IMG/VR virus record: IMGVR_UViG_3300047548_001594
Coordinates: 1-45,410 of that record
Source: a virus
Reading direction: 5' to 3' (one strand)
Length of the DNA: 45,410 nucleotides
Under the pieces are notes generated by a model. That model was not told the origin of the DNA and searched no databases. It worked only from the letters and a program-made list of their open reading frames with translations. Position 1 is the first letter of the stretch, and the number at the start of each line of letters is the position of its first letter. This document shows positions 5,111-21,854 of the stretch, piece by piece. The position numbers and the translations under genes were made by a program.

Positions 5111-6949
5111 ATGGCGACAGCAAATAACTTTGTAGTCAAAAACGGATTGACGGTTGGTAACACTGCTGTCATTACTTCTTCAGGTCAATGGATAGGTGAT
5201 CCAACAGGATTATATGGTCCAACAGGACCAACCGGACCAACAGGCTTTACTGGAGCAACAGGACCCACAGGTTCAACAGGTTCTACTGGTCCAACCGGTA
5301 ACACAGGTCCAACTGGACCACAAGGCGTATCAGGACCAACTGGTCCAACAGGCCCTTCAGGCGTTGCAGGCGTAGATGGTCCAACTGGACCAACAGGTTC
5401 TACCGGACCTACAGGACCAAGCGGTGTACAAGGTGTATCTGGACCCACAGGTCCTTCAGGTGTCGCAGGTGTAGATGGAGCTACAGGTCCCACTGGTCCA
5501 ACAGGTCCTTCAGGTGTCGCAGGTGTAGATGGAGCTACAGGTCCCACTGGTCCAACAGGTCCTTCAGGCGTTGCGGGTGTAGATGGTCCTACTGGACCAA
5601 CAGGTTCCACTGGACCAACAGGTCCTTCAGGTATTCCAGGTATAGACGGTCCAACTGGACCAACAGGTGCTTCAGGTATAGATGGTCCTACTGGTCCAAC
5701 AGGACCAACAGGACCCTCTGGTGCAATTGGCTCCACTGGACCTACTGGTCCAACCGGACCTTCAGGTGTCGCAGGTATTGCAGGTGTAGATGGACCCACC
5801 GGTCCTACTGGACCAACAGGACCCTCTGGTGTAAATGGTGAAATTGGACCCACTGGTCCAACAGGTCCTTCAGGTGTTGCAGGTGTAGACGGTCCAACTG
5901 GACCTACCGGACCAACAGGACCTTCAGGCGTAACCGGTTCTATTGGTCCAACCGGACCAACAGGTGCATCAGGTATAGATGGTACTATTGGTCCAACGGG
6001 TCCAACAGGACCAACTGGTCCTTCAGGTGCAGCTTCCACAGTTTCTGGTCCAACCGGACCAACTGGACCAACAGGTCCTTCAGGTTTAATTGGTACTACT
6101 GGTCCAACAGGACCAACTGGTCCTTCAGGTGCAGCATCGACAGTTTCCGGTCCAACGGGTCCAACAGGACCAACTGGTCCTTCAGGTGCAGATTCAACAG
6201 TTTCTGGACCAACGGGACCAACTGGACCAACAGGTGCTCCGTCAACAGTTTCTGGACCAACGGGTCCAACGGGTCCTTCTGGAACCGCATCGACAGTTTC
6301 CGGACCAACAGGTCCAACAGGACCAACTGGTCCTTCAGGTGCAGATTCCACAGTTTCTGGTCCAACCGGACCAACTGGACCAACAGGTCCAACAGGTGCT
6401 CCGTCAACAGTTTCTGGACCAACGGGTCCAACAGGACCAACAGGTTCCGCTTCAACAGTTTCTGGACCAACGGGACCAACTGGTCCAACAGGACCTTCAG
6501 GCTTAACAGGACCAACCGGACCAACTGGCCCAACAGGAACAATTACCGTTGATAAATTCTCGGGTAATGGAACAACAAACACATTTGCACTTTCTGTAAC
6601 ACCTTTAAATAAAGACTACACAATAATAAACATTGATGGTGTTATACAGTTAAAAAATGCCTATTCTCTCAGTGAAAGTACAATTACTCTAACTGAGAAT
6701 GCTCCCGCAAATTCAAATGTGGAAATTATGACTTTCCAAATGGGTGGCGGAGGAAGTGGTGGAGGTGGAGGTGGTGGAACGGCCAATATATCAATATTGG
6801 ACGAAGGTATTGTATTAACTAATACAGTAACAAGTATTAATTTTGTTGGTAACGGAGTTACTGGTAATGTTACAGGTAATGCAGTTACAGTGACTATTGC
6901 AACAAATTCTCAAGATATCTTAAGTCCATTTTTATTCATGGGCGCATAA
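5111..6949 (+). CDS. Large collagen-like tail fibre protein
   Basis: A 612-residue protein. Residues 1-33 are a short N-terminal docking segment ('[20 protein letters not shown]'). About residues 34-478 are collagen-type Gly-X-Y triplets, mostly Gly-Pro-Thr and Gly-Pro-Ser, interrupted by 'GVAGVDG' and 'STVSGPTG' units. Residues 480-550 form a small globular domain ('[18 protein letters not shown]'), followed by a poly-Gly/Ser linker (about 541-556) and a beta-rich tip of about 55 residues. Pro-Thr-rich collagen repeats form triple-helical shafts in phage fibres. The C-terminal domain should hold the trimerisation or receptor contacts. Unlike the fibre at 1, there is no S74 chaperone. Confidence 0.85.
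5212..6540 (+). repeat. Collagen-like GPT/GPS repeat tract
   Basis: About 1.3 kb of imperfect 9- and 18-base units coding Gly-Pro-Thr/Ser triplets. Inside it a 54-base stretch is duplicated in tandem (copies starting near 5449 and 5503), and larger units built on Ser-Thr-Val-Ser recur between about 6030 and 6470. Silent sites vary more here than in the perfect tract at 1-144. Long antisense reading frames through this tract are by-products of the repeat. Confidence 0.9.
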
Positions 6950-6958
6950 GGAAATAAT

Positions 6959-7288
6959 ATGGCAATAATTTATAAAGTTTTAGGACAAAGTAATCCAGCA
7001 GCAAATACGAATGCGGATTTATATACTGTCCCTTCTGCCACTTCCGCAGTATGTAGTACATTAGTTGTTTGCAATCAATCTTCAACCGCCGCAAGCTTTA
7101 GTATAGCAGTCAGACCCTCAGGTGCTGCAATATCAAATACACATTATTTGGCATTTAATTCAAATTTAAATTCTAATGATAGTGTGACATTAACAATTGG
7201 TATGACACTTGCTGCAACAGACGTTGTAACGGTGCGAGCAAGCACAACCTCAGTTAGTTTTAATTTATTTGGATCTGAAATAGTATGA
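6959..7288 (+). CDS. Small beta-sandwich putative virion protein
   Basis: A 109-residue protein. Its pattern ('IIYKVLGQSNP...ADLYTVPSATSAVCSTLVVCN...TLAATDVVTVRAST...SFNLFGSEIV') resembles a small protein often found in fibre clusters of aquatic T4-like phages, as I recall; I know of no assigned function. No signal peptide or membrane span. The stop overlaps the start of the giant LamG protein by four bases (ATGA), so the two are probably co-translated and may assemble together (inference). Confidence 0.7.
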   Translation: MAIIYKVLGQSNPAANTNADLYTVPSATSAVCSTLVVCNQSSTAASFSIAVRPSGAAISNTHYLAFNSNLNSNDSVTLTIGMTLAATDVVTVRASTTSVSFNLFGSEIV

Positions 7289-10200
7289 GTATAACATCGA
7301 TTGTTAATAACAATATTGGTGATTCAAGTTTTGTCAATGCACAGAAACCAACACCACCCACAATAACAAATTATTCTGTTGACGGAATAGATGATACTGC
7401 TTTATTACTTGAAGGTGGTCAAACAGTATTAATAAATGGAACAGGATTTCAAAGAGGTGCTACCGTTACTTTGGGTGGTGTCGCCATAGGAGTGGTGACT
7501 TGGATTAATTCCAATCAATTAAGTTTTACCAGTACAGCTAGAACCGCTGGAACTTATACATTGTTTGTAATAAATGCGGATGGAGGTACTGCAATTTATT
7601 TACCTGGCATAATATACAGTAGTAATCCAAATTGGGTAACTAATGCTGGAAGTTTAGGTAGTTACTATGAAACTAAAACAATTTCTAACACCATAATTGC
7701 AACTGATGATATTGGATCAAATATTTCTTATTCATTATCTTCAGGTAGTTTACCTGATGGAGCAACCTTATATGCTAACGGTGTGATTTCAGGTACAGCA
7801 CCAGTTGATAATGGAAGCACAACATATACTTTTACTATTGAAGCCACCGATGGTAATTTACAAAGTAGCACCAGATCATTTAGTTTAACTATTAACACAG
7901 ATGTGGTTACTTGGGTAAATCCATCAAATGAAGCAACATTAGTAATAGATGGATTACCTTATAATACAACACTGAATGCAACTAGCGCAGCAGGTTATAA
8001 TATTGGAAGCTATATTGCAAATACTTTGCCATCAGGACTTACTTTGACTAATAATATTATTTCAGGAACACCAACTGAGTCTGGCATTATTACGACATTA
8101 CTAACAGCAACATCCGCAAATACAAATCGTAGTGCTAATAACATAATAACATGGATTGTAACTATTAATGATCCATATTGGGAATATGTAAACACTTTAT
8201 TGAGCGCCAATAATAATACTTTACCTTTCACGCATGATGCTAGTACAAATAAATTTAATACTACAGTGTCTGGCGATCTTAAACCAAACAACTATGGACC
8301 GTATACTCTTGGTTATTACAGCAATTATTTTGACGGCACTGGAGATTTTTTAACTGTTCCTTCAAATGCCGCATTAAATATTACATCTGGTAGTACAGAT
8401 TCTTTTAGTTGTGAATTGTGGGTATATTTTACTACTGTTGGAGCAAATAGATCGATTGTTGACAATGGTGGTCTTAGTGGAACCTCATTCTCAAACTGGG
8501 CAATATATTTAAATGCTTCAAGTCAAATAACAATCACATGGGGTATTTCTGGTTCACCTGGAACTTCTGCTATTGGTACTCTTACATCATCTACTGTACC
8601 AGTAGCGGGGTTATGGTATCACATTGCATTAGTAAAAACAAATGCAGATTGGTCATTATTTATTAATGGAACAAGAACAAACACAGTCAATGGATTTAAT
8701 ACGGCTGACAAAACCAATTCTACTGCACTTTATATTGGTAATGGAATTATTGGAGCAGGTTTTGCTGGTTATATTAGTAATTTACGAATTTACAAAGGTG
8801 CCACTGGGTCTGCTCCTTATTCCGCCACATCAACTAAAATTACAGTACCTACTAATCCACTGACTGCTATCACAAATACCAGTTTACTGACTTGCCAAGG
8901 CAATAGACTTATTGACAACTCAACAAATAACTTTACAATCAATCGTAACGGTGATACTACAGTAAGTTCATTCGATCCATTCGCACCTAACAGTAGTTAC
9001 GCAACTTATGGTAGTGCATACTTCGATGGTGTAGGTGATTATCTAACTACACCCAGCAATTCGGCTTTCAATTTTTCCGGTAATTTTACTGTTGAGGCAT
9101 GGATATATCCCACTACTTTATCCTTAGCAAAACAAATTATTACTACTAGAGCCTCTAGCTCCACTTCAAATACTACTGCTTGGGCTTTAGGTTTAAACAA
9201 TAGCGCATTAACATGGTATACTAATGCATACAATGTTAGTGGAGGTACAGTAATTTTAAATTCATGGAATCATGTAGCTGCTGTTAGATCCGGTTCTACA
9301 CTTACTTTATACCTAAACGGAAATAGCATAGGCACAGCTACATCAAACAATAACTTTACAGATCAACAATTGTCAATTGGTGCATGTATCGATGGAACTG
9401 AACCTTATATTGGTTACATGTCAGATGTGCGTGTTATAAAAGACACAGCAGTTTACACTACAAATTTCACACCACCCACAAGTCCACTCACTGCCATTGC
9501 AAATACAAGTTTACTAACGCTGCAAACCAACCAACCAATGAATAACAATGTGTTCATTGACAACAGTAGCATTAATAATTTCATAACAAGAAATGGTAAT
9601 ACTACGCAGGGAACTTTTAGTCCATACGGTGAAAGCTGGAGCAATTATTTTGATGGAACTGGCGACTTTCTTACAGTTACAAATAACACAGCATTAAATT
9701 TGAGTTCCGGCAACTTTACGATTGAATGTTGGTTCTACACTACAGCATCAGGAGTTCAACAAACAATTATACAAAAAGATGGCATAAGTGGAACAAGGCA
9801 AAATCAATATGCATTTTATATACTCAATACTAATCAAATTCAGTTTACAGTAAGTCCAGCTTCTGGAGCATCCGGAAATCAAAACTTTATATATTCTACC
9901 GCAATAAATGTAAATACTTGGTATCATTTAGCAGCAGTTAGAAATGGAAACAACATAACGGTATTTTTAAATGGTCAAATTGTCGTAGGTCCAACTGCGT
10001 TGACAGTAACTATGGGTAACAATACAGGTGATTTGACTATTGGAGTCACACCTACATCGGCAAATACTTTTTATGGATATATTTCCAATGTTCGGATAGT
10101 CAAGGGCACAGCAGTTTACACTAACGCATTCACACCGAGCACAACTCCATTGCAACCTATTGCAAATACAGTTTTATTGACCTGTCAAAGCTCAAGAATA

Positions 10201-12150
10201 GTTGATAATTCTTTTAATAATTTTACTGTTACTCGTAGTGGAGATGTTAGTGTTCAAAAATATAGTCCATATGCAGGAACAACTTTACCCGCACCCTCTT
10301 ATAGTAATTATTTTTCTAGTGCAACAAACGATTATTTGAACGTTGGCGGAGTGCCTATACCCGCTACTGGACCATTTACTTTAGAGTTTTGGATATTTTA
10401 TCCAACCGCACCGTCAGAAAATAAGTGGATCTATAATCAAAGAAACTCCAATGATGCAAACAGATTCGGCATTGTATTAAAGCCAACTATGCAAATTGCA
10501 GTTTCACATGCTGCATCTTCACCTACAGAGCCAGTAGTAACTAGCGCAATGGCTACAAATGTATGGAATCATTTTGCATTAACTAGAGATGCGTCGAATA
10601 ATTTACGAGCGTTCCTCAACGGAAACTTAGAAGCAACATATGCTAATTTTGGCTCAGTGGCTCAAATCAATGCGGTAATTGGTAGAATTGCCGAATCTAG
10701 TTTATATTATATAACTGGATATTTAAGTAATCTTAGAGTAGTTAATGGAACTGCTTTATATACATCAAGTTTTACACCGTCAACAACACCATTAACAGCA
10801 GTATCGGGCACTAGTTTATTAATTTTCAACTCGGCAACCATAACTGATAATTCATCAAACAACTTTACCATTACTGTTAACGGAGCTATCAGACCAACCA
10901 CATTTAACCCATTCACAATCACATATTCAACTGGACAATCTTATACACGAGAGCTGTACGGTGGTAGTACGTATTTTGATGGAACGGGAGATTACTTAAC
11001 TACTCCTACCACCGGTACGTCACCGTTTGCATATAATACATTTTTTGGTACCGGAAAAACATTTACAGTTGAGGCTTGGTTATATCAAAATTCATTTGTA
11101 ACCGCCGCCTCATATTTTAATATTGTTTTAGGAGACGGGCAAGCCTCAGGAGCGGCTATGTATTGGAACTGCGGAACTGATAATAGTAATAAACCTGAAA
11201 TTTCATGGTATGATGGTGCAAGTAAATCAGCGACAGCATCTAACGCACTGCCGATAAATCAATGGAATCATGTTGCTTGGGTAGTTAATGCTGGAGTTAT
11301 TAAAATTTACGTTAATGGAATATCACAAACATTAACAGGTACAACAACATTAACTAATGCTACTGGCTCCGACACGATACTCATAGGAGTAGACAGAGCA
11401 AACTATTATACTGGATACATTTCTAGTTTACGTGTAATTAAAGGGCAAGCATTATATACTTCTAATTTTGTGCCACCATCAGCGCCTCTAACAGAAGTTC
11501 AAAACTCTATACTACTAGTGCCTGGAACGGCCGCAGCTATTGTCGATGCTTCAATGATTAACAACTTTGAAACAGCGAATGGTGCCAGTATTAATACATC
11601 GGTAACTAAATATGGAAACTCTAGTATGTATTTTGATGGCACCGGTGATTGGTTAACAACTCGTTATAATCCAAGTCAACAACCAGGTTCTGGCAATTTA
11701 ACGTGGGAAATGTGGATTAACACAACAAATTCAACGCAATATGCAACATTGTACAGTCGTACACCAGCCTCATTTGCATCAGGTATGTGGTCACTAATGA
11801 TGAATCATGCATCTAGCACTGCTGGAGATGTTGCTTTATATGTTGCGGATTATAGTGTCGGTACACCTTTATTGTTGACAACAGGAGCAAATGTTCGTGA
11901 TGGAAATTGGCATCATATAGCCGTTGTTAGAAACGGAAGTTCATGGGTATTATATATAAATGGAACATCCAGGGCGACGGGTACTTGGAGTGGAACAATT
12001 GCAAACTATAACTCTGGACCTTATATCGGCGCAGACCAATTTTATACTAGAGCATATACAGGTTATATAAGTGATTTACGTATAACAAATGGTATAGCGC
12101 GCTATACTTCCAACTTTACAGCACCATTGTCTACATTTATAAAGTATTGA
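7285..12150 (+). CDS. Giant multi-LamG-domain adhesin-like virion protein
   Basis: A 1621-residue protein. About residues 24-112 resemble an IPT/TIG immunoglobulin-like domain ('GGQTVLINGTGFQRGATVTLGG'). About 115-205 and 206-300 resemble He_PIG-type Ig domains ('LPDGATLYANGVISGTAP', 'LPSGLTLTNNIISGTPTESG'). Six concanavalin-A/LamG-type domains follow, marked by 'YFDGTGDFLT'-like motifs near residues 347, 578, 787, 1007, 1228 and 1447, each with 'W.H.A.V..G....ynG' and 'YtGYiSnlRi..g.a.Yt..F..P' signatures. Such folds typically bind carbohydrate. With Ig domains this is a host-surface or glycan-binding adhesin by inference. No catalytic motif was recognised. Confidence 0.85.
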   Translation: MSITSIVNNNIGDSSFVNAQKPTPPTITNYSVDGIDDTALLLEGGQTVLINGTGFQRGATVTLGGVAIGVVTWINSNQLSFTSTARTAGTYTLFVINADGGTAIYLPGIIYSSNPNWVTNAGSLGSYYETKTISNTIIATDDIGSNISYSLSSGSLPDGATLYANGVISGTAPVDNGSTTYTFTIEATDGNLQSSTRSFSLTINTDVVTWVNPSNEATLVIDGLPYNTTLNATSAAGYNIGSYIANTLPSGLTLTNNIISGTPTESGIITTLLTATSANTNRSANNIITWIVTINDPYWEYVNTLLSANNNTLPFTHDASTNKFNTTVSGDLKPNNYGPYTLGYYSNYFDGTGDFLTVPSNAALNITSGSTDSFSCELWVYFTTVGANRSIVDNGGLSGTSFSNWAIYLNASSQITITWGISGSPGTSAIGTLTSSTVPVAGLWYHIALVKTNADWSLFINGTRTNTVNGFNTADKTNSTALYIGNGIIGAGFAGYISNLRIYKGATGSAPYSATSTKITVPTNPLTAITNTSLLTCQGNRLIDNSTNNFTINRNGDTTVSSFDPFAPNSSYATYGSAYFDGVGDYLTTPSNSAFNFSGNFTVEAWIYPTTLSLAKQIITTRASSSTSNTTAWALGLNNSALTWYTNAYNVSGGTVILNSWNHVAAVRSGSTLTLYLNGNSIGTATSNNNFTDQQLSIGACIDGTEPYIGYMSDVRVIKDTAVYTTNFTPPTSPLTAIANTSLLTLQTNQPMNNNVFIDNSSINNFITRNGNTTQGTFSPYGESWSNYFDGTGDFLTVTNNTALNLSSGNFTIECWFYTTASGVQQTIIQKDGISGTRQNQYAFYILNTNQIQFTVSPASGASGNQNFIYSTAINVNTWYHLAAVRNGNNITVFLNGQIVVGPTALTVTMGNNTGDLTIGVTPTSANTFYGYISNVRIVKGTAVYTNAFTPSTTPLQPIANTVLLTCQSSRIVDNSFNNFTVTRSGDVSVQKYSPYAGTTLPAPSYSNYFSSATNDYLNVGGVPIPATGPFTLEFWIFYPTAPSENKWIYNQRNSNDANRFGIVLKPTMQIAVSHAASSPTEPVVTSAMATNVWNHFALTRDASNNLRAFLNGNLEATYANFGSVAQINAVIGRIAESSLYYITGYLSNLRVVNGTALYTSSFTPSTTPLTAVSGTSLLIFNSATITDNSSNNFTITVNGAIRPTTFNPFTITYSTGQSYTRELYGGSTYFDGTGDYLTTPTTGTSPFAYNTFFGTGKTFTVEAWLYQNSFVTAASYFNIVLGDGQASGAAMYWNCGTDNSNKPEISWYDGASKSATASNALPINQWNHVAWVVNAGVIKIYVNGISQTLTGTTTLTNATGSDTILIGVDRANYYTGYISSLRVIKGQALYTSNFVPPSAPLTEVQNSILLVPGTAAAIVDASMINNFETANGASINTSVTKYGNSSMYFDGTGDWLTTRYNPSQQPGSGNLTWEMWINTTNSTQYATLYSRTPASFASGMWSLMMNHASSTAGDVALYVADYSVGTPLLLTTGANVRDGNWHHIAVVRNGSSWVLYINGTSRATGTWSGTIANYNSGPYIGADQFYTRAYTGYISDLRITNGIARYTSNFTAPLSTFIKY
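8300..12130 (+). repeat. Six LamG-type domain repeats, about 660 bp each
   Basis: The domain-start motif recurs at intervals of 231, 209, 220, 221 and 219 residues. Between domains the linker 'P..PL.ai.nTsLLt.q.....DnS.nnFtit.nG' is also repeated, so the duplicated unit is domain plus linker. DNA copies are well diverged, implying old duplications. Confidence 0.85.
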
Positions 12151-12175: not shown

Positions 12176-15100
12176 ATGCCATTAACAAAAATAAAATCAT
12201 TCGGTTTAGATTCCACTCAAGATTTTTCTGTAAATAGTCTCACAGCGAATACTGTAATCATTGGTGGGTCAACCGTAACTCCTTCTCCTTTCAGTGTTTG
12301 CAATACAACCAACATTGTAAGTTGTATAGGTGGTAACGGAGGTAGCGGCACAAACAACTTTTTTGCTGGTCAATGTGCAGGTATATGCAACATATCAGGT
12401 GGTAATAACAACAACTTCTTAGGTCAATGTGCCGGAAATAGAAATACAACCGGCAAAAATAATAATTTCTTGGGTTCTTCTGCTGGTCGTCTTAATACTA
12501 GTGGCAGCTACAATAATTTCTTCGGGCAAAATTCAGGTTGTTCAAATACTACCGGTCTTTATAACAACTTTTTTGGACAATCTGCCGGGCTTTCTAACAC
12601 AACAGGTTCAGACAATAATTTCTTTGGTAGTTACGCTGGTCGAAACATCACCACCGGTGGATATAACAATTTTTTAGGTCGAGCTGCGGGCCGTTGCAAC
12701 ACCATTGGCAATTACAACAACTTTTTCGGCAAATATGCCGGTCGAAACGGCACTTATTCTTCACACAACAACTTCTTTGGTCGTTGTGCGGGATTAAGAA
12801 ACACAGGATGTTATAATAACTTCTTTGGTAATTGTGCCGGCTCATGTAACACAACAGGTTCAGACAATAATTTCTTTGGTAATTACTCGGGAAAATATAA
12901 TAATACAGGATCCCAAAATATCTTTATGGGACGTTTTGGTGGCTACTCTAATACAACTGGCTCCAATAATATCTTCTTTGGTTGTAGATCAGGTATCAAC
13001 AATACCACAGGAAACAATAATTTATTTGCCGGTGAATGTGCAGGACACTATAATACAACCGGCAGTAATAATATATTCTTCGGTTGCAACGCTGGTTGCG
13101 CAGTAACGACAGGAACGAATAACTTAATTATTGGTCCTTTCATAGGCACTTCCGGTTTACAGAACATGATACACCTACGTGCCGGTAACAACTGTTTACA
13201 AATATGTGGCACTGGATGTTTAACAGTCAATGGTGTTGCCGTTGGTGGGGGCAGTGCATTCAATGTGTGTGGAACCAGAAATATCGTAAGCTGTATCAGT
13301 GGAACTGGTGGAAGCGGCAGTGATAATTTCTTTGTTGGTCGTTGTTCAGGTAAATACAATACAACCGGCGGCGGAAATAACTTTATAGGTAGATATAGTG
13401 GTAATAGTAATGGTACAGGATGCAACAACAACTTTTTAGGTACCAATGCAGGCTTCAATAATTCAACTGGTTGCTATAATAACTTCTTTGGTCTTAATGC
13501 GGGATTCTGCAACACTACAGGTTTTTCCAACAATTTCTTCGGCTGCCTTGCTGGTCGTAATAACACGACAGGCTGCCGTAACAACTTTTTTGGTGCTAAT
13601 GCCGGATATAACAATTCAACTGGTTGTTACAATAACTTCTTTGGTTATAATGTGGGGTGCAGCAATACAACTGGAATTTGTAACACCTTTATTGGCGCAC
13701 TTACAGGTAGTTATAACACAACAGGTAGTTTCAATGTTTTCATAGGACCCTCGGCCGGTTATTATAATGTCAGTGGTGTTAGCAACGTATTTATAGGTAG
13801 AAATACTGGTTGTAAGAACACATCAGGCAATTATAATGTATTTTTAGGTATGAGTGCAGGACGATGCAATACCACAGGCAGTAATAATACTTTTATTGGA
13901 AATAATACAGGTCTTAATAACACCACCGGCTGTAGTAATGTATTCATAGGAGAGGCTGCTGGAAGATGTAATGTTTGCGGGTTCGATAATGTTTTCATTG
14001 GTAAGTATGCTGGTTGGAAATCTACAGGTGGTTATAATAATAATTTTATTGGAGAACGTGCTGGCTATAATGCAGGTAGTTATGCTGCTGACAATAACTT
14101 CTTTGGAAAATTCACTGGATATTATATCACCAATGGATGGGGTAACAACGCGTTTGGACCAGAATCCGCTTATAATATCACCACAGGTGAATTAAATAAT
14201 TTTATGGGGTGGTTGTCGGGAACCAGTACAACAACAGGAACTAACAACAACTTCTTCGGTCATTTGGCTGGAGGAAGCAATACAACCGGTTCACATAATA
14301 TCGCCTTTGGTAAATATGCAGGACGATGCAATACTACAGGCAGTAATAATACTTTTATTGGACAAAATGCTGGTTCCTCGGTAACAACAGGAACAAATAA
14401 CCTTATTATAGGGTCATATTCTGGTACAGCCGGTTTACAGAACATGATACACCTACGTGCTGGCACCAACTGCCTACAAGTATGTGGTGCCGGATGTTTA
14501 ACTGTTAATGGTGTTGCCGTTGGTGGTGGAGCAAGTGTATTTAATATAAGCGGAACTAGAATTTATAGTTGTATTAGTAATGGTGGTGGTTACGATAGTG
14601 ACACTTTTATTGCAGGTTATTGCGCTGGATCCAATTCTTCTTTTGGTACTTACAATACTTTCATTGGTAGGTATGCAGGAGCAAGTATGTATTTGGGTGC
14701 CGGCAATAATTTTTTGGGGCAAAATGCTGGTCGATGCAATACTGATGGTTGTCACAACAACTTTTTTGGAACAAGTGCAGGTTGTTGCAACACAACCGGT
14801 ACCTGGAATAACTTTTTTGGCCTTACTGCGGGACGAGGTAATACAACCGGGAATAACAATAACTTCTTTGGTCAAGGCGCAGGTTCTCGCAATACAACAG
14901 GCAGTAATAACATTTTTATGGGACTGTGTAGTGGCTTCTGTAGCACAACCGGCGGTTATAATGTATTTTTAGGTTCGAATACAGGTTTCCTCAACACCAC
15001 AGGCGCTCATAATGTCTTCATTGGTTGTACTGCTGGCCGTAGTAATACCACTGGCAATAACAACTTCTTTGCAGGTCAAGGTGCTGGCTTTTCAAACACC

Positions 15101-15874
15101 ACAGGCGCTCATAATGTCTTCATTGGTTGCGGTGCCGGTAATTCCAACGTCAGCGGCATTTCAAACATAATGATTGGCCGAGGTGCTGGTCTCAATAATG
15201 TTAGTGGTAATAACAATATTTTTATCGGCTGTAATACAGGTCTACCCAACAGCACGGGGTTTAGCAACATATTCTTTGGACCTAATTCTGGTCGTTACAA
15301 CACCACTGGCAATAACAACTTCTTTGCGGCAGAACGTGCTGGTTATTGTAATACAACCGGCAGTTTTAACTTATTCCTGGGTTCCTGTGCTGGTTGTTGC
15401 AATACCACTGGAGTTAACAATTTATTCTTTGGTTGTGTGTCAGGTGTAGGTACGACTGGATTGGCTAATATTACCACAGAATCCAATCGAATCATCATGG
15501 GAAATAGTGCTCATACATGCGCTCAAATACAAATAGGTTGGACTACAGTTTCCGACTGCCGCGATAAATGTATCTATGGACCAGTACGATTGGGTCGTGG
15601 ATTCTTACAAGGTCTTGAACCAATTGAATATTCATTCAAAAATAGAATCACTGGCTGCATTACCGATCCGGAAGGTAAACGCAGATACGGATTTTCAGCG
15701 CAAAATGTTTTGGCCGCCGAAGGTGAAAAACCGGTCATTGTATCAGCAGATGATCCAGAAAAATTACAATTAACTAGCGACTATTTAATACCAGTTCTTG
15801 TTAATGCTATTAATGAACTATCAACCGAAGTTGATATCTTAAAGGTTAAAGTTGGCGCACTTGAAGCTAGGTGA
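12176..15874 (+). CDS. Cys-rich 17-residue-repeat fibre with S74 chaperone
   Basis: A 1232-residue protein. After a 59-residue N-terminus come three blocks of a 17-residue repeat with consensus 'NNFFGxxAGxxNTTGxx' (about residues 60-315, 383-742 and 809-1089; about 53 copies). Two near-identical connectors ('GLQNMIHLRAG', 'CLTVNGVAVGGG') separate the blocks. The C-terminus (about 1126-1232) is a Peptidase_S74 chaperone with S1126-D-C-R-D-K1131, then a leucine-rich coiled coil. Phe/Asn/Gly periodicity suggests a stacked beta-helix or trimeric beta shaft. Nearly sixty cysteines, usually at fixed repeat positions, are unusual for a virion fibre. Function as a receptor-binding or long tail fibre is inferred from S74 and context. 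Confidence 0.85.
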   Translation: MPLTKIKSFGLDSTQDFSVNSLTANTVIIGGSTVTPSPFSVCNTTNIVSCIGGNGGSGTNNFFAGQCAGICNISGGNNNNFLGQCAGNRNTTGKNNNFLGSSAGRLNTSGSYNNFFGQNSGCSNTTGLYNNFFGQSAGLSNTTGSDNNFFGSYAGRNITTGGYNNFLGRAAGRCNTIGNYNNFFGKYAGRNGTYSSHNNFFGRCAGLRNTGCYNNFFGNCAGSCNTTGSDNNFFGNYSGKYNNTGSQNIFMGRFGGYSNTTGSNNIFFGCRSGINNTTGNNNLFAGECAGHYNTTGSNNIFFGCNAGCAVTTGTNNLIIGPFIGTSGLQNMIHLRAGNNCLQICGTGCLTVNGVAVGGGSAFNVCGTRNIVSCISGTGGSGSDNFFVGRCSGKYNTTGGGNNFIGRYSGNSNGTGCNNNFLGTNAGFNNSTGCYNNFFGLNAGFCNTTGFSNNFFGCLAGRNNTTGCRNNFFGANAGYNNSTGCYNNFFGYNVGCSNTTGICNTFIGALTGSYNTTGSFNVFIGPSAGYYNVSGVSNVFIGRNTGCKNTSGNYNVFLGMSAGRCNTTGSNNTFIGNNTGLNNTTGCSNVFIGEAAGRCNVCGFDNVFIGKYAGWKSTGGYNNNFIGERAGYNAGSYAADNNFFGKFTGYYITNGWGNNAFGPESAYNITTGELNNFMGWLSGTSTTTGTNNNFFGHLAGGSNTTGSHNIAFGKYAGRCNTTGSNNTFIGQNAGSSVTTGTNNLIIGSYSGTAGLQNMIHLRAGTNCLQVCGAGCLTVNGVAVGGGASVFNISGTRIYSCISNGGGYDSDTFIAGYCAGSNSSFGTYNTFIGRYAGASMYLGAGNNFLGQNAGRCNTDGCHNNFFGTSAGCCNTTGTWNNFFGLTAGRGNTTGNNNNFFGQGAGSRNTTGSNNIFMGLCSGFCSTTGGYNVFLGSNTGFLNTTGAHNVFIGCTAGRSNTTGNNNFFAGQGAGFSNTTGAHNVFIGCGAGNSNVSGISNIMIGRGAGLNNVSGNNNIFIGCNTGLPNSTGFSNIFFGPNSGRYNTTGNNNFFAAERAGYCNTTGSFNLFLGSCAGCCNTTGVNNLFFGCVSGVGTTGLANITTESNRIIMGNSAHTCAQIQIGWTTVSDCRDKCIYGPVRLGRGFLQGLEPIEYSFKNRITGCITDPEGKRRYGFSAQNVLAAEGEKPVIVSADDPEKLQLTSDYLIPVLVNAINELSTEVDILKVKVGALEAR
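12353..15440 (+). repeat. 51-bp repeat array (17-residue units) in three blocks
   Basis: Repeat units are 51 bases, mostly diverged, but some are locally identical: a 35-base stretch at 14993-15027 recurs at 15095-15129, exactly two units later. A 30-base connector sequence at 13153-13182 recurs unchanged at 14431-14460. Recent recombination within the gene is the simplest reading. Confidence 0.9.
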
Positions 15875-15889
15875 ATAAAATAAGTGTGA

Positions 15890-15929
15890 AATAGGTGTTG
15901 ATATATACTATCAACACCTATTATTTTTT
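15890..15929 (+). terminator. Strong intrinsic terminator after the fibre cluster
   Basis: A perfect 13-bp stem (15891-15903 with 15909-15921), extendable by one A-T pair, a 5-base loop and a run of six T (15924-15929). It ends the fibre transcript just before the glycan island. Confidence 0.93.
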
Positions 15930-18800: not shown

Positions 18801-19730
18801 ATGAAGAAAAAATATTATTTTATGGCTGGTTTACCAAGAAGCGGAAGCACCATGCTATCAGCAATCTTAAACCAAAATCCCAAATTTTATTGTGGTCCGA
18901 GTTCACCAGTTGTACCAACAATGCTTGCACTGGAAAATTCATTATCTAATGATGAACTTTTTCTAGCATATCCGAAATATGATTTTGGTAAAAATTTGAT
19001 TTCTTCTGTGTTGGATCATTATTATTCTGACATAGAAAAACCTATAATTATCGAAAAAAATAGAAGCTGGATAAATCGAGTAAATTATATACAAGGTTAT
19101 TTCGACATACAAACTCCTAAAATTTTATATCCGGTAAGAGATGTGTCAGAAATATTAGCTTCATTTATTTCTATGATAAAGAGAAATCCAACCATCGTAA
19201 ACAATCGGTTGAATTTCATAGATCAAACACTCGTTCAGCAAGGTATGCCAATAACAGATGAAAATCGTTGCAGACTAATTGCAGGACCAGGTATTTTGGG
19301 TCAATCGTTCGATGGCCTTAAGAAAGCTTTATCTGAAGGATATCGTGCAAATATTCACTTCATAGAATACAAAGATTTGGTAAACAACCCAAGAGAAACA
19401 ATGAAAAAAGTTTATGAATTTTTGGGTGAACCAATGTATAACCACGATTATAAAAATTTGAAAAATGTTCACCAGGAAGATGATGCAAACATTTACGGAT
19501 TTACAGATATGCATGAAGTGAGACCGGAAGTGAAATCAACTTCACTTCCTCCAGAGGATGTTTTACCAAAAATTGTTTTGGATTCCGTTTCTGGGGCAGA
19601 ATTTTGGAGAGAAATCGATGATGTACCCCTAAATGAAGAAACAATAAATAATAAAACAGAAATCAATAAACAAACTTTCTTTGGAGAAATCGTTGAAGAC
19701 GAACAATCCTCAGATTCTAGGTTTATTTAA
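18801..19730 (+). CDS. PAPS-dependent sulfotransferase
   Basis: A 309-residue protein. The N-terminal P-loop-like motif 'GLPRSGSTML' (residues 10-19) is the 5'-phosphosulfate-binding loop of sulfotransferases. A second motif, 'YPVRDVSEILASF' (about 109-121), matches the 3'-phosphate-binding Arg...Ser element. Such enzymes move sulfate from PAPS to a hydroxyl or amine of a glycan, lipid or peptide. The last 40 residues are acidic and Asn/Glu-rich, probably flexible. It lies nine bases after the GT9-like gene and close to an APS-kinase-like fusion that might bear on PAPS supply. The acceptor is unknown; it is probably the glycan built by neighbouring transferases (inference). Confidence 0.88.
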   Translation: MKKKYYFMAGLPRSGSTMLSAILNQNPKFYCGPSSPVVPTMLALENSLSNDELFLAYPKYDFGKNLISSVLDHYYSDIEKPIIIEKNRSWINRVNYIQGYFDIQTPKILYPVRDVSEILASFISMIKRNPTIVNNRLNFIDQTLVQQGMPITDENRCRLIAGPGILGQSFDGLKKALSEGYRANIHFIEYKDLVNNPRETMKKVYEFLGEPMYNHDYKNLKNVHQEDDANIYGFTDMHEVRPEVKSTSLPPEDVLPKIVLDSVSGAEFWREIDDVPLNEETINNKTEINKQTFFGEIVEDEQSSDSRFI

Positions 19731-20238: not shown

Positions 20239-21000
20239 ATGGAAAAAATTGTTTTGTTTACTGGAGGTTTCGATCCAGTACATAGTGGTCACATTTCTTG
20301 CATACAAGAAGCGAGAAAAATTGGAAGAGTTGTTATAGGATTAAATTCCGACGAATGGCTTACCCGTAAAAAAGGTAAGCCATTTTTATCTTTCTACGAA
20401 CGGAAATTAATTTTAGATCAATTCAAAGATGTTTTGTGTGTATTAGATTTTGATGACAGTGACAATACTGCATCGGATGCGATACGAAAAACAAAAGAAA
20501 TGTTTCCAAATAATGAAATCGTTTTCGTGAATGGTGGTGATAGAACAAAAAATAATATTCCAGAACTGGAAAAATACCAAAATGATAATAAGGTATCTTT
20601 TTTGTTCGGAATAGGTGGAGAAAATAAACAAAATAGTTCAAGTCTTATATTGTCAGATTGGAAGTCACCCACAGAAAAACGTGTTTGGGGTGACTCTATG
20701 ACATATTATGATACGAAACAAACAAAAGTCAAAAGATTGGTTTTGGAACCAGGTAAATCTATATCAATGCAATACCATTTAAACAGAAATGAATTTTGGT
20801 TTATAGAATCTGGATCAGGAACAATTTATACTTACGACAAAGAAAAAATCATTAACTTAAAAAACATATATAAACATGAGATGCACCATGTCAGAGTTGG
20901 TGAGTGGCATAAAATAGAAGCCAGTTCGGAAGAAAAATTGTGCATCGTTGAAATCCAATATGGTATTAACTGTGATGAAGGAGATATAATAAGATTATGA
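20239..21000 (+). CDS. Nucleotidyltransferase-cupin fusion (heptose/mannose type)
   Basis: A 253-residue protein with two domains. Residues 1 to about 140 are an HxGH nucleotidyltransferase ('FTGGFDPVHSGH', H15 and H18; 'NGGDRTKNNIPE'; 'NSSSLIL'), closest in look to the RfaE/HldE C-terminal domain that activates heptose-1-phosphate with ATP. Residues about 150-253 are a cupin like the C-terminal domain of type II mannose-6-phosphate isomerases ('WGDSMTYYD', 'VKRLVLEPGKSISMQYH', 'EIQYGINCDEGDIIRL'). The pairing suggests a sugar-phosphate activation step for neighbouring glycosyltransferases. The stop overlaps the next start (ATGA). A terminator-like hairpin lies inside the gene at 20354-20388. 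Confidence 0.82.
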   Translation: MEKIVLFTGGFDPVHSGHISCIQEARKIGRVVIGLNSDEWLTRKKGKPFLSFYERKLILDQFKDVLCVLDFDDSDNTASDAIRKTKEMFPNNEIVFVNGGDRTKNNIPELEKYQNDNKVSFLFGIGGENKQNSSSLILSDWKSPTEKRVWGDSMTYYDTKQTKVKRLVLEPGKSISMQYHLNRNEFWFIESGSGTIYTYDKEKIINLKNIYKHEMHHVRVGEWHKIEASSEEKLCIVEIQYGINCDEGDIIRL

Positions 21001-21854
21001 AAAAAATATTAATTATGGGATTACCCGGCGCAGGCAAAACATATTTTGCAAATAGACTAAAAGAATATTTGGAAACAAACGGTGATCTATTAAAGATTAA
21101 TCCGGATAAATTATTGAATTATGAGGGCATACCCGGACCTGAAACTATGAGAGTTCATGTTGATTGGTTCAATGCCGATGAAGTTCGTAAACGGTTCAAT
21201 GACTGGGATTTTAGCCGTGAAGGTCGTATACGCCAAAGTTTGAGAATGTTCGAATTTGCCGCAAAATGCACCGGTGAATTTGCTATCTGTGATTTCGTTG
21301 CACCATTGCCTGAAATGAGGCATAATTTCAAAGCCGATTGGACCATCTGGATGGACACAATCGATTCTGGTCGTTATGAAGATACCAACAAAGCTTTTGT
21401 TCCTCCAGATGTTTATGACTTCAGAATCACTGAACAGAATGCTGAGAAATGGGCAGAATTTGTGGGAAACCACATACTGGAAAATCGCCGTAGACCAAGA
21501 TTTGATTGGAAAAAAGAAACCGTTCAGATGCTAGGAAGATGGCAGCCATGGCACGCGGGTCACCGAGCACTATTCGATAGAGCAATTGCTAAAACGGGTC
21601 AAGTAGTAATACAAATACGCGATTGCCAAGGTTGGCAAGGTTCAAATCCTTTTGCTATTGAGCAGGTAAAGAACTACATCCGTAGAGATTTGGATCCACT
21701 GTATCAGGGTCAATACGAAATTCAAGTTGTACCAAACATCGTCAACATCACATATGGTAGAGATGTTGGATACAAAATAGAACAAGAAGTATTTGATGAT
21801 GAAACGCATTCTATTTCTGCAACTAAAATTCGTAAAGAAATGGGTCTAAAATGA
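20997..21854 (+). CDS. APS-kinase-like P-loop kinase fused to nucleotidyltransferase
   Basis: A 285-residue fusion. Residues 1 to about 165 are a P-loop kinase with Walker A 'GLPGAGKT' (8-15). 'WFNADEVRKRFNDWDFS' and 'FVAPLPEMR' resemble adenylylsulfate kinase (CysC). Residues about 175-285 are an HxGH nucleotidyltransferase ('GRWQPWHAGH', H186 and H189; 'SISATKIRKEM' near the end), closer to NMN or sugar nucleotidyltransferases than to ATP sulfurylase. If the kinase makes PAPS it would feed the sulfotransferase at 18801, but a different phosphorylated substrate is equally possible. It overlaps both neighbours by four bases, so it is translationally coupled. Confidence 0.82.
   Translation: MKKILIMGLPGAGKTYFANRLKEYLETNGDLLKINPDKLLNYEGIPGPETMRVHVDWFNADEVRKRFNDWDFSREGRIRQSLRMFEFAAKCTGEFAICDFVAPLPEMRHNFKADWTIWMDTIDSGRYEDTNKAFVPPDVYDFRITEQNAEKWAEFVGNHILENRRRPRFDWKKETVQMLGRWQPWHAGHRALFDRAIAKTGQVVIQIRDCQGWQGSNPFAIEQVKNYIRRDLDPLYQGQYEIQVVPNIVNITYGRDVGYKIEQEVFDDETHSISATKIRKEMGLK

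Follow-up and report, generated by a model that had tools for sequence, protein, structure and literature searches.

Phage structural proteins are usually poor in cysteine, and the question raised by IMG/VR virus record IMGVR_UViG_3300047548_001594 is why one long, repetitive protein encoded there, a fibre, contains 58 cysteines. The window analysed here is the whole stretch of 45,410 nucleotides (positions 1 to 45,410 of the record), and the fibre gene occupies positions 12176 to 15874. An initial annotation, made from the letters of the DNA, had described a fibre of stacked beta structure carrying ladders of cysteine. Here, we report that the cysteines occupy a fixed register in a 17-residue repeat and that, in the wider family, direct stacking of cysteines is avoided at the most frequently used position. 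Overall, we lean towards an S74-type beta-solenoid fibre with exposed thiols, some of which may be joined in sparse disulfide staples on release. The gene and the hairpin behind it are laid out as follows.

12176..15874, + strand: coding sequence of the fibre protein, 1232 aa with 58 cysteines (ORF list, composition).
12176..12355, + strand: N-terminal segment outside the repeats, aa 1-60, presumably virion-proximal (sequence).
12356..13171, + strand: repeat block 1, 16 units of the 17-mer, aa 61-332, 13 cysteines (register analysis).
13172..13324, + strand: spacer 1, aa 333-383, starting NMIHLRAGNNCLQICGTGCLTVNG; relatives have AAGTCERLKVDATGLSING; 5 cysteines; fold predicted with low confidence.
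13325..14449, + strand: repeat block 2, 22 units, aa 384-758, 15 cysteines (register analysis).
14450..14602, + strand: spacer 2, aa 759-809, 4 cysteines (register analysis).
14603..15469, + strand: repeat block 3, 17 units, aa 810-1098, 15 cysteines, mostly predicted two-stranded beta-solenoid turns (register analysis, AlphaFold2).
15470..15871, + strand: C-terminal region, S74-like intramolecular chaperone (SDCRDK...GFSAQ...LVNAINEL), with the Pfam stretch at aa 1126-1181 (Pfam, PHROG, PDB profile).
15890..15929, + strand: intrinsic-terminator-like hairpin with a perfect 14-bp stem, a 5-nt loop, and a T run (direct reading of the sequence).

The repeat consensus is N-x-F-F-G-x-x-A-G-x-x-N-T-T-G-x-x (17 residues). 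Anchored on N-x-F-x-G, 55 units fall into three blocks, three degenerate block ends included, in agreement with the roughly 53 copies in three blocks first reported; the two 51-aa spacers between the blocks resemble each other. The exact cysteine count (58, by hand "nearly sixty") amounts to 4.7% of the protein, compared with 82 of 13330 residues (0.62%) in the other 42 open reading frames (ORFs) of the window (binomial tail, 9e-32). Within the repeats lie 43 of the 58, at positions 6 (7 cysteines), 7 (9), 10 (6), 11 (12), and 16 (6), with 3 elsewhere; none falls on the conserved N1, F3, F4, G5, A8, G9, N12, or T13. With 40 of 43 at five positions, the distribution departs from a uniform spread (chi-square p = 3e-13), which bears out the early observation of a few fixed repeat positions, and the contexts then quoted (GRCN, QCAG, and TGCY) are all three present. 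The remaining 15 cysteines are found chiefly in the spacers (8 to 10% cysteine) and the termini. The ORF ends in TGA, and the terminator-like hairpin lies 3' of the gene.

The scaffold itself was recognized by PHROG profiles for virion structural protein (phrog_23837, 1.4e-63) and tail spike (phrog_4636, 1.3e-59) and by phrog_6002 (9.4e-53). These matches take in the repeat region in seven to eight stretches, and phrog_23837 covers aa 952-1227. Out of 15 aligned members of the fibre family, 14 match the Pfam S74 domain (PF13884; best, 2.5e-11), the C-terminus of the window fibre aligns throughout (SD-x-R-x-K ... G-F-x-A-Q), and a PDB profile search matched the family to solved chains of S74-type fibres. 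Phage fibres with NTTG-type repeats and PF13884 (the three PHROG families above; the putative tail fibre of HTVC111P and HTVC112P, the "T4-like proximal tail fiber" of P-SSM2, and CRP-1/CRP-7) have the same 17-residue spacing and Gly/Asn pattern, end in an S74-type domain in most cases, and are encoded next to tail genes, as is the window fibre. They differ from it in the strand-1 core (A(I/V)G in most isolates, FFG in the window) and in cysteine content (0.1 to 2.5%, in most with none at the variable positions, versus 4.7%). We are highly confident that the protein is a fibre with a known 17-residue scaffold, and the S74-terminated form of that scaffold is already known and annotated in phages. 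The initial annotation knew of no described fibre of this type, which holds in part: the scaffold has been described, and the claim survives for the heavy cysteine decoration, of which no description was found.

AlphaFold2, applied to aa 843-1232, placed two short strands in each 17-mer (positions 2-4 and 11-14), at a pLDDT of about 90 for many repeats; its model of the C-terminal region was poor, and the spacer structure was of low confidence (mean pLDDT, 61). The repetitive fibre with a stacked beta structure proposed at the outset is upheld by this model, while the cysteine ladders are not upheld by the counts given below. In a BFVD fold search, phage "intramolecular chaperone" proteins matched at 7.6e-6 and 3.9e-5, below an unnamed top match (2e-7). 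Among the weaker BFVD matches are adhesin-like proteins of giant viruses (A0A2H4UUJ5, A0A481YXX9, and A0A481ZG68, from Bodo saltans virus, Marseillevirus, and Pithovirus), whose predicted folds resemble the fibre repeat. F3 and the hydrophobic residue 4 lie on opposite faces of strand 1. The need to bury both faces points to an oligomer; the fibre is probably homotrimeric. Its predicted short two-strand turns, rich in Asn and Gly, and its probable trimer recall the YadA-like head (the left-handed parallel beta-roll of trimeric autotransporters), and BFVD lists a pithovirus YadA-like head protein. That head, however, has turns of 14 residues (15 in UspA1; PMC9543794) rather than 17, and the window fibre has no Pfam YadA_head match at E<=1 and no autotransporter anchor. 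Turn length, the Pfam result, and the lack of a confident Foldseek match in the PDB speak against membership in this group.

The cysteine register is a family trait, present in most of the IMG/VR relatives obtained. About 35 distinct relatives were collected from related IMG/VR loci, many with 3 to 6% cysteine; over 1264 repeats, cysteine makes up 26% of residues at position 11, 20% at 16, 18% at 7, 10% at 10, 8% at 17, 6% at 6, and near zero elsewhere. The search patterns partly contained cysteine, so this sample is biased towards cysteine-rich forms. The cysteine-rich IMG/VR fibres (approximately 34 distinct) have the FFG repeat and the register of the window fibre (7, 11, and 16 above 10, 6, and 17) and differ from it in repeat number, spacers, and C-termini (S74 in some); they are not described as a group in the literature searched. 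Some of them have several paralogues side by side, and at three loci a single phage encodes two or three cysteine-rich repeat proteins close together; gene duplication may therefore be a route by which the family grows. A T4-type portal protein also occurs in 8 of 21 records tested; the others may be fragments or different phage types.

More widely, the 17-residue repeat is present in phages of Pelagibacter, roseobacters, Prochlorococcus, Synechococcus, Methylophilales, and Achromobacter and in a Methanosarcinales virus. A search from HTVC111P, whose repeat is A(I/V)G and not FFG, returned relatives of which most have 3.5 to 10% cysteine at variable sites, whereas isolate phages of other hosts mostly have none there. 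Cysteine enrichment is milder (mostly 4 to 10% of variable sites) in the fibres of HTVC111P and HTVC112P, both from cultured Pelagibacter phages, and of their relatives; phages infecting most other hosts do not show it, so the trend may be linked to the host. A pattern search of cellular genomes gave no relative, a related-locus search from the archaeal-virus relative (no cysteine at variable repeat positions) returned nothing, and HTVC008M and the examined part of Melnitz hold no comparable cysteine-rich repeat protein. As far as searched, the cysteine-rich form of the scaffold is undescribed.

In disulfide-ladder solenoids (insect antifreeze type), cysteines recur at the same place in successive turns. 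The ladders first proposed for the window fibre would be of this kind, with cysteines of successive turns sharing a column and forming a continuous disulfide or metal-binding stripe along the shaft. Confinement to a few register positions fits that proposal, as do the layers of a comparable left-handed beta-roll, approximately 4.8 Å apart (PMC9543794). Same-column cysteine neighbours in the window fibre are nonetheless at chance (6 observed versus 5.4 expected). In the pooled family (1271 non-redundant adjacent repeat pairs, permuted within proteins, a scheme that models repeat duplication incompletely), C11-C11' neighbours are avoided, with 38 observed versus 88.7 expected (z -7.3; before redundancy removal, 29 versus 64, z -5.8). 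Same-column cysteines are also avoided at 17 and are not enriched at 6, 7, 10, or 16. At position 11 the avoidance is specific to cysteine, as Ser next to Ser is slightly enriched there (99 versus 85 expected), which argues that selection acts on the thiol. Because many tests were run, the weaker z-scores are suggestive at most, but the avoidance at position 11 is far beyond a multiple-testing effect. The ladder was rejected on these counts, and we give it almost no credence.

Other adjacencies were counted in the pooled family. Within one turn, neighbouring cysteines are avoided at 10-11 and 16-17 and more weakly at 6-7; turns with exactly one cysteine are over-represented (504 versus 444 expected), and those with three or more are under-represented (21 versus 46). 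Enrichment was found on two diagonals, from 7 to 11 of the following turn (82 versus 62.8, z +3.1) and from 16 to 11 of the following turn (85 versus 68.2, z +2.7). These numbers bear on a second proposal, that cysteines contributed by adjacent turns, or by three chains, cluster to bind metal or are loaded with iron. Such a fibre, if trimeric, would offer up to about 174 thiols, and iron-binding tail fibres have been proposed in the literature. Yet recurrent ligand motifs of closely set residues, such as CxxC or HxH, were not seen, and avoidance of close pairs (6-7, 10-11, 16-17, and 11-11') is the opposite of what single-chain metal clusters would give; we consider metal binding very improbable.

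Cysteine might instead have accumulated without function, by mutational drift at unconstrained positions, since TGY codons are easily reached from Tyr, Ser, Phe, and Arg codons. The TGY counts at positions 7, 11, and 16 are indeed near the product of first- and second-base frequencies (271/245, 366/332, and 281/254), an expectation that is partly circular because it was computed from the same cysteine-rich codons. Set against drift are the phages of roseobacters, Prochlorococcus, Synechococcus, Methylophilales, and Achromobacter, in which the repeat occurs without cysteine at these sites, and the selection on the thiol indicated by the cysteine-specific C11-C11' avoidance. As the whole cause, neutral codon drift was rejected, the base-product test being compatible at some sites but circular and the cysteine-free relatives arguing against it; we rate it as improbable. 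Template-directed hypervariation, considered from an NNY codon bias at the variable sites, was also set aside, as this bias mostly follows from the residues used. Across the relatives, position-7 cysteines are encoded by TGT 262 times and by TGC 9 times, usually followed by GCN (Ala), compared with 202 and 164 at position 11; the position-7 preference suggests that CpG or GCGC is avoided where the two codons meet.

The virus is a T4-like (Kyanoviridae-type) myovirus, and the fibre gene belongs to its host-recognition cluster. In the window, PHROG profiles identified tail sheath, portal, and scaffold proteins, and adaptor Ad2, head closure Hc2, and terminase are encoded there too; Ad2, Hc2, TerL, sheath, tube, and portal are syntenic with Pelagibacter phage HTVC008M, and the DNA is similar to HTVC008M, Melnitz, and cyanophages, in agreement with gene order. 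The fibre gene lies upstream of the neck genes (Ad2 and Hc2), the baseplate side being beyond the window, and its neighbours encode a collagen-like protein, a six-fold LamG protein, glycosyltransferases, and sugar-modifying enzymes. This arrangement matches the cluster published for pelagimyophages, which includes tail fibres and glycosyltransferases, and collagen repeats, concanavalin, and YadA domains are reported among their structural proteins (PMC7029224); in cyanophage S-TIM4, adaptation to new hosts targets a YadA-domain structural protein (PMC6224464).

This setting accords with a further rival, in which the cysteines are contact residues of a hypervariable binding surface: free thiols, together with Tyr, Arg, Asn, and Ser, would bind host surface molecules, possibly by thiol-disulfide exchange, and stability would not be their purpose. 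Cysteine is found solely at variable positions, amid Y, R, N, and S; in one informative pair of homologues it was replaced like other variable residues, and its spacing is as expected with selection against intrachain bonding. A cysteine-specific reason is still needed, as cysteine is far above background and above His or Asp at 7, 11, and 16, and exposed thiols would be expected to oxidise in oxic water. We take the contact-residue explanation seriously and regard it as somewhat unlikely.

Also in the cluster are a sulfotransferase-family gene (18801-19730; PF13469, 1e-15) and a gene at 20997-21854 that is kinase/cytidylyltransferase-like and weakly matches APS kinase, which suggest phage-encoded modification of surface sugars, possibly sulfation. 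A 1621-aa protein (7285-12150) combines six Laminin_G_3/ConA-type lectin domains with Ig-like He_PIG domains; it matches baseplate wedge and virion structural families in PHROG and is probably another receptor-binding protein. Collagen-like (GPT/TGP) repeats lie at 1-145 and 5111-6949; the start of the window falls within a series of eight perfect 18-bp units. The second stretch is overlapped by a long antisense ORF (5185-6582), probably a by-product of the repeats.

In the explanation that we favour, about 55 turns of the 17-residue repeat would form the long beta-solenoid shaft of a host-recognition fibre, and the C-terminal S74-type domain, by analogy with its family, would probably serve as an intramolecular chaperone for trimerisation of the chain, with possible cleavage of the domain itself. 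Cysteines at variable, presumably exposed turn positions (6, 7, 10, 11, 16, and 17) would number approximately one per turn, with stacking of adjacent cysteines at position 11 selected against. The thiols would most likely remain reduced during cytoplasmic assembly; after lysis, some may oxidise to sparse diagonal staples, turn to turn or chain to chain (7 to the next 11, and 16 to the next 11). Such staples would toughen the shaft, and the spacing would prevent mispairing of directly stacked thiols. Two uses are compatible with unstacked thiols in exposed turns, namely sparse diagonal staples and free thiols spaced against unwanted bonds, and the enrichment of diagonal pairs favours staples. 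A disulfide role is the use of the cysteines that we place first, although tentatively.

Precedent for tail disulfides comes from Agrobacterium phage Milano (PMC10811340), the single relevant one that literature searches for cysteine-rich tail fibres returned. Its virion parts are likewise cysteine-rich (2.1% mean in structural proteins), and a disulfide network forms in the tail after assembly; unlike in the window fibre, the bonds are at sheath, tube, and baseplate joints and not in a repetitive fibre.

Several results weigh against the favoured explanation. The window fibre's own match to Pfam S74 (E 0.28/0.064) is under the gathering cut-off (E 0.28, 11.9 versus 22 bits), and a Foldseek search of the PDB gave no confident match (best E, 0.12). 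The diagonal enrichment is small (approximately 1.3-fold), so most cysteines are without a fixed partner in the sequence. In one divergent homologous pair, cysteine was retained at 4 of 15 variable sites, no better than Ser, Tyr, or Asn; this was the one informative pair, as 60%-identity BLAST alignments otherwise slip between repeats.

The window fibre belongs to a family from uncultured phages with 40 to more than 100 cysteines per chain, a fixed register, and a measurable anti-stacking rule. Anti-stacked, in-register cysteines suggest that thiol or disulfide chemistry takes place in these fibres outside the cell. A broader proposal, which we consider doubtful, is that a group of uncultured phages, many of them T4-like, has adapted a widespread fibre scaffold as a shaft studded with thiols, whose dozens of spaced cysteines, kept unstacked by selection, would be a working surface for interchain covalent staples or for reactions of thiols with metals or the host envelope. 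In this proposal, the trait may be tied to hosts such as SAR11, as HTVC111P and HTVC112P, both cultured Pelagibacter phages, show a milder form. The FFG repeat with cysteine at positions 7, 11, and 16 provides a sequence signature by which the group can be recognized in metagenomes.

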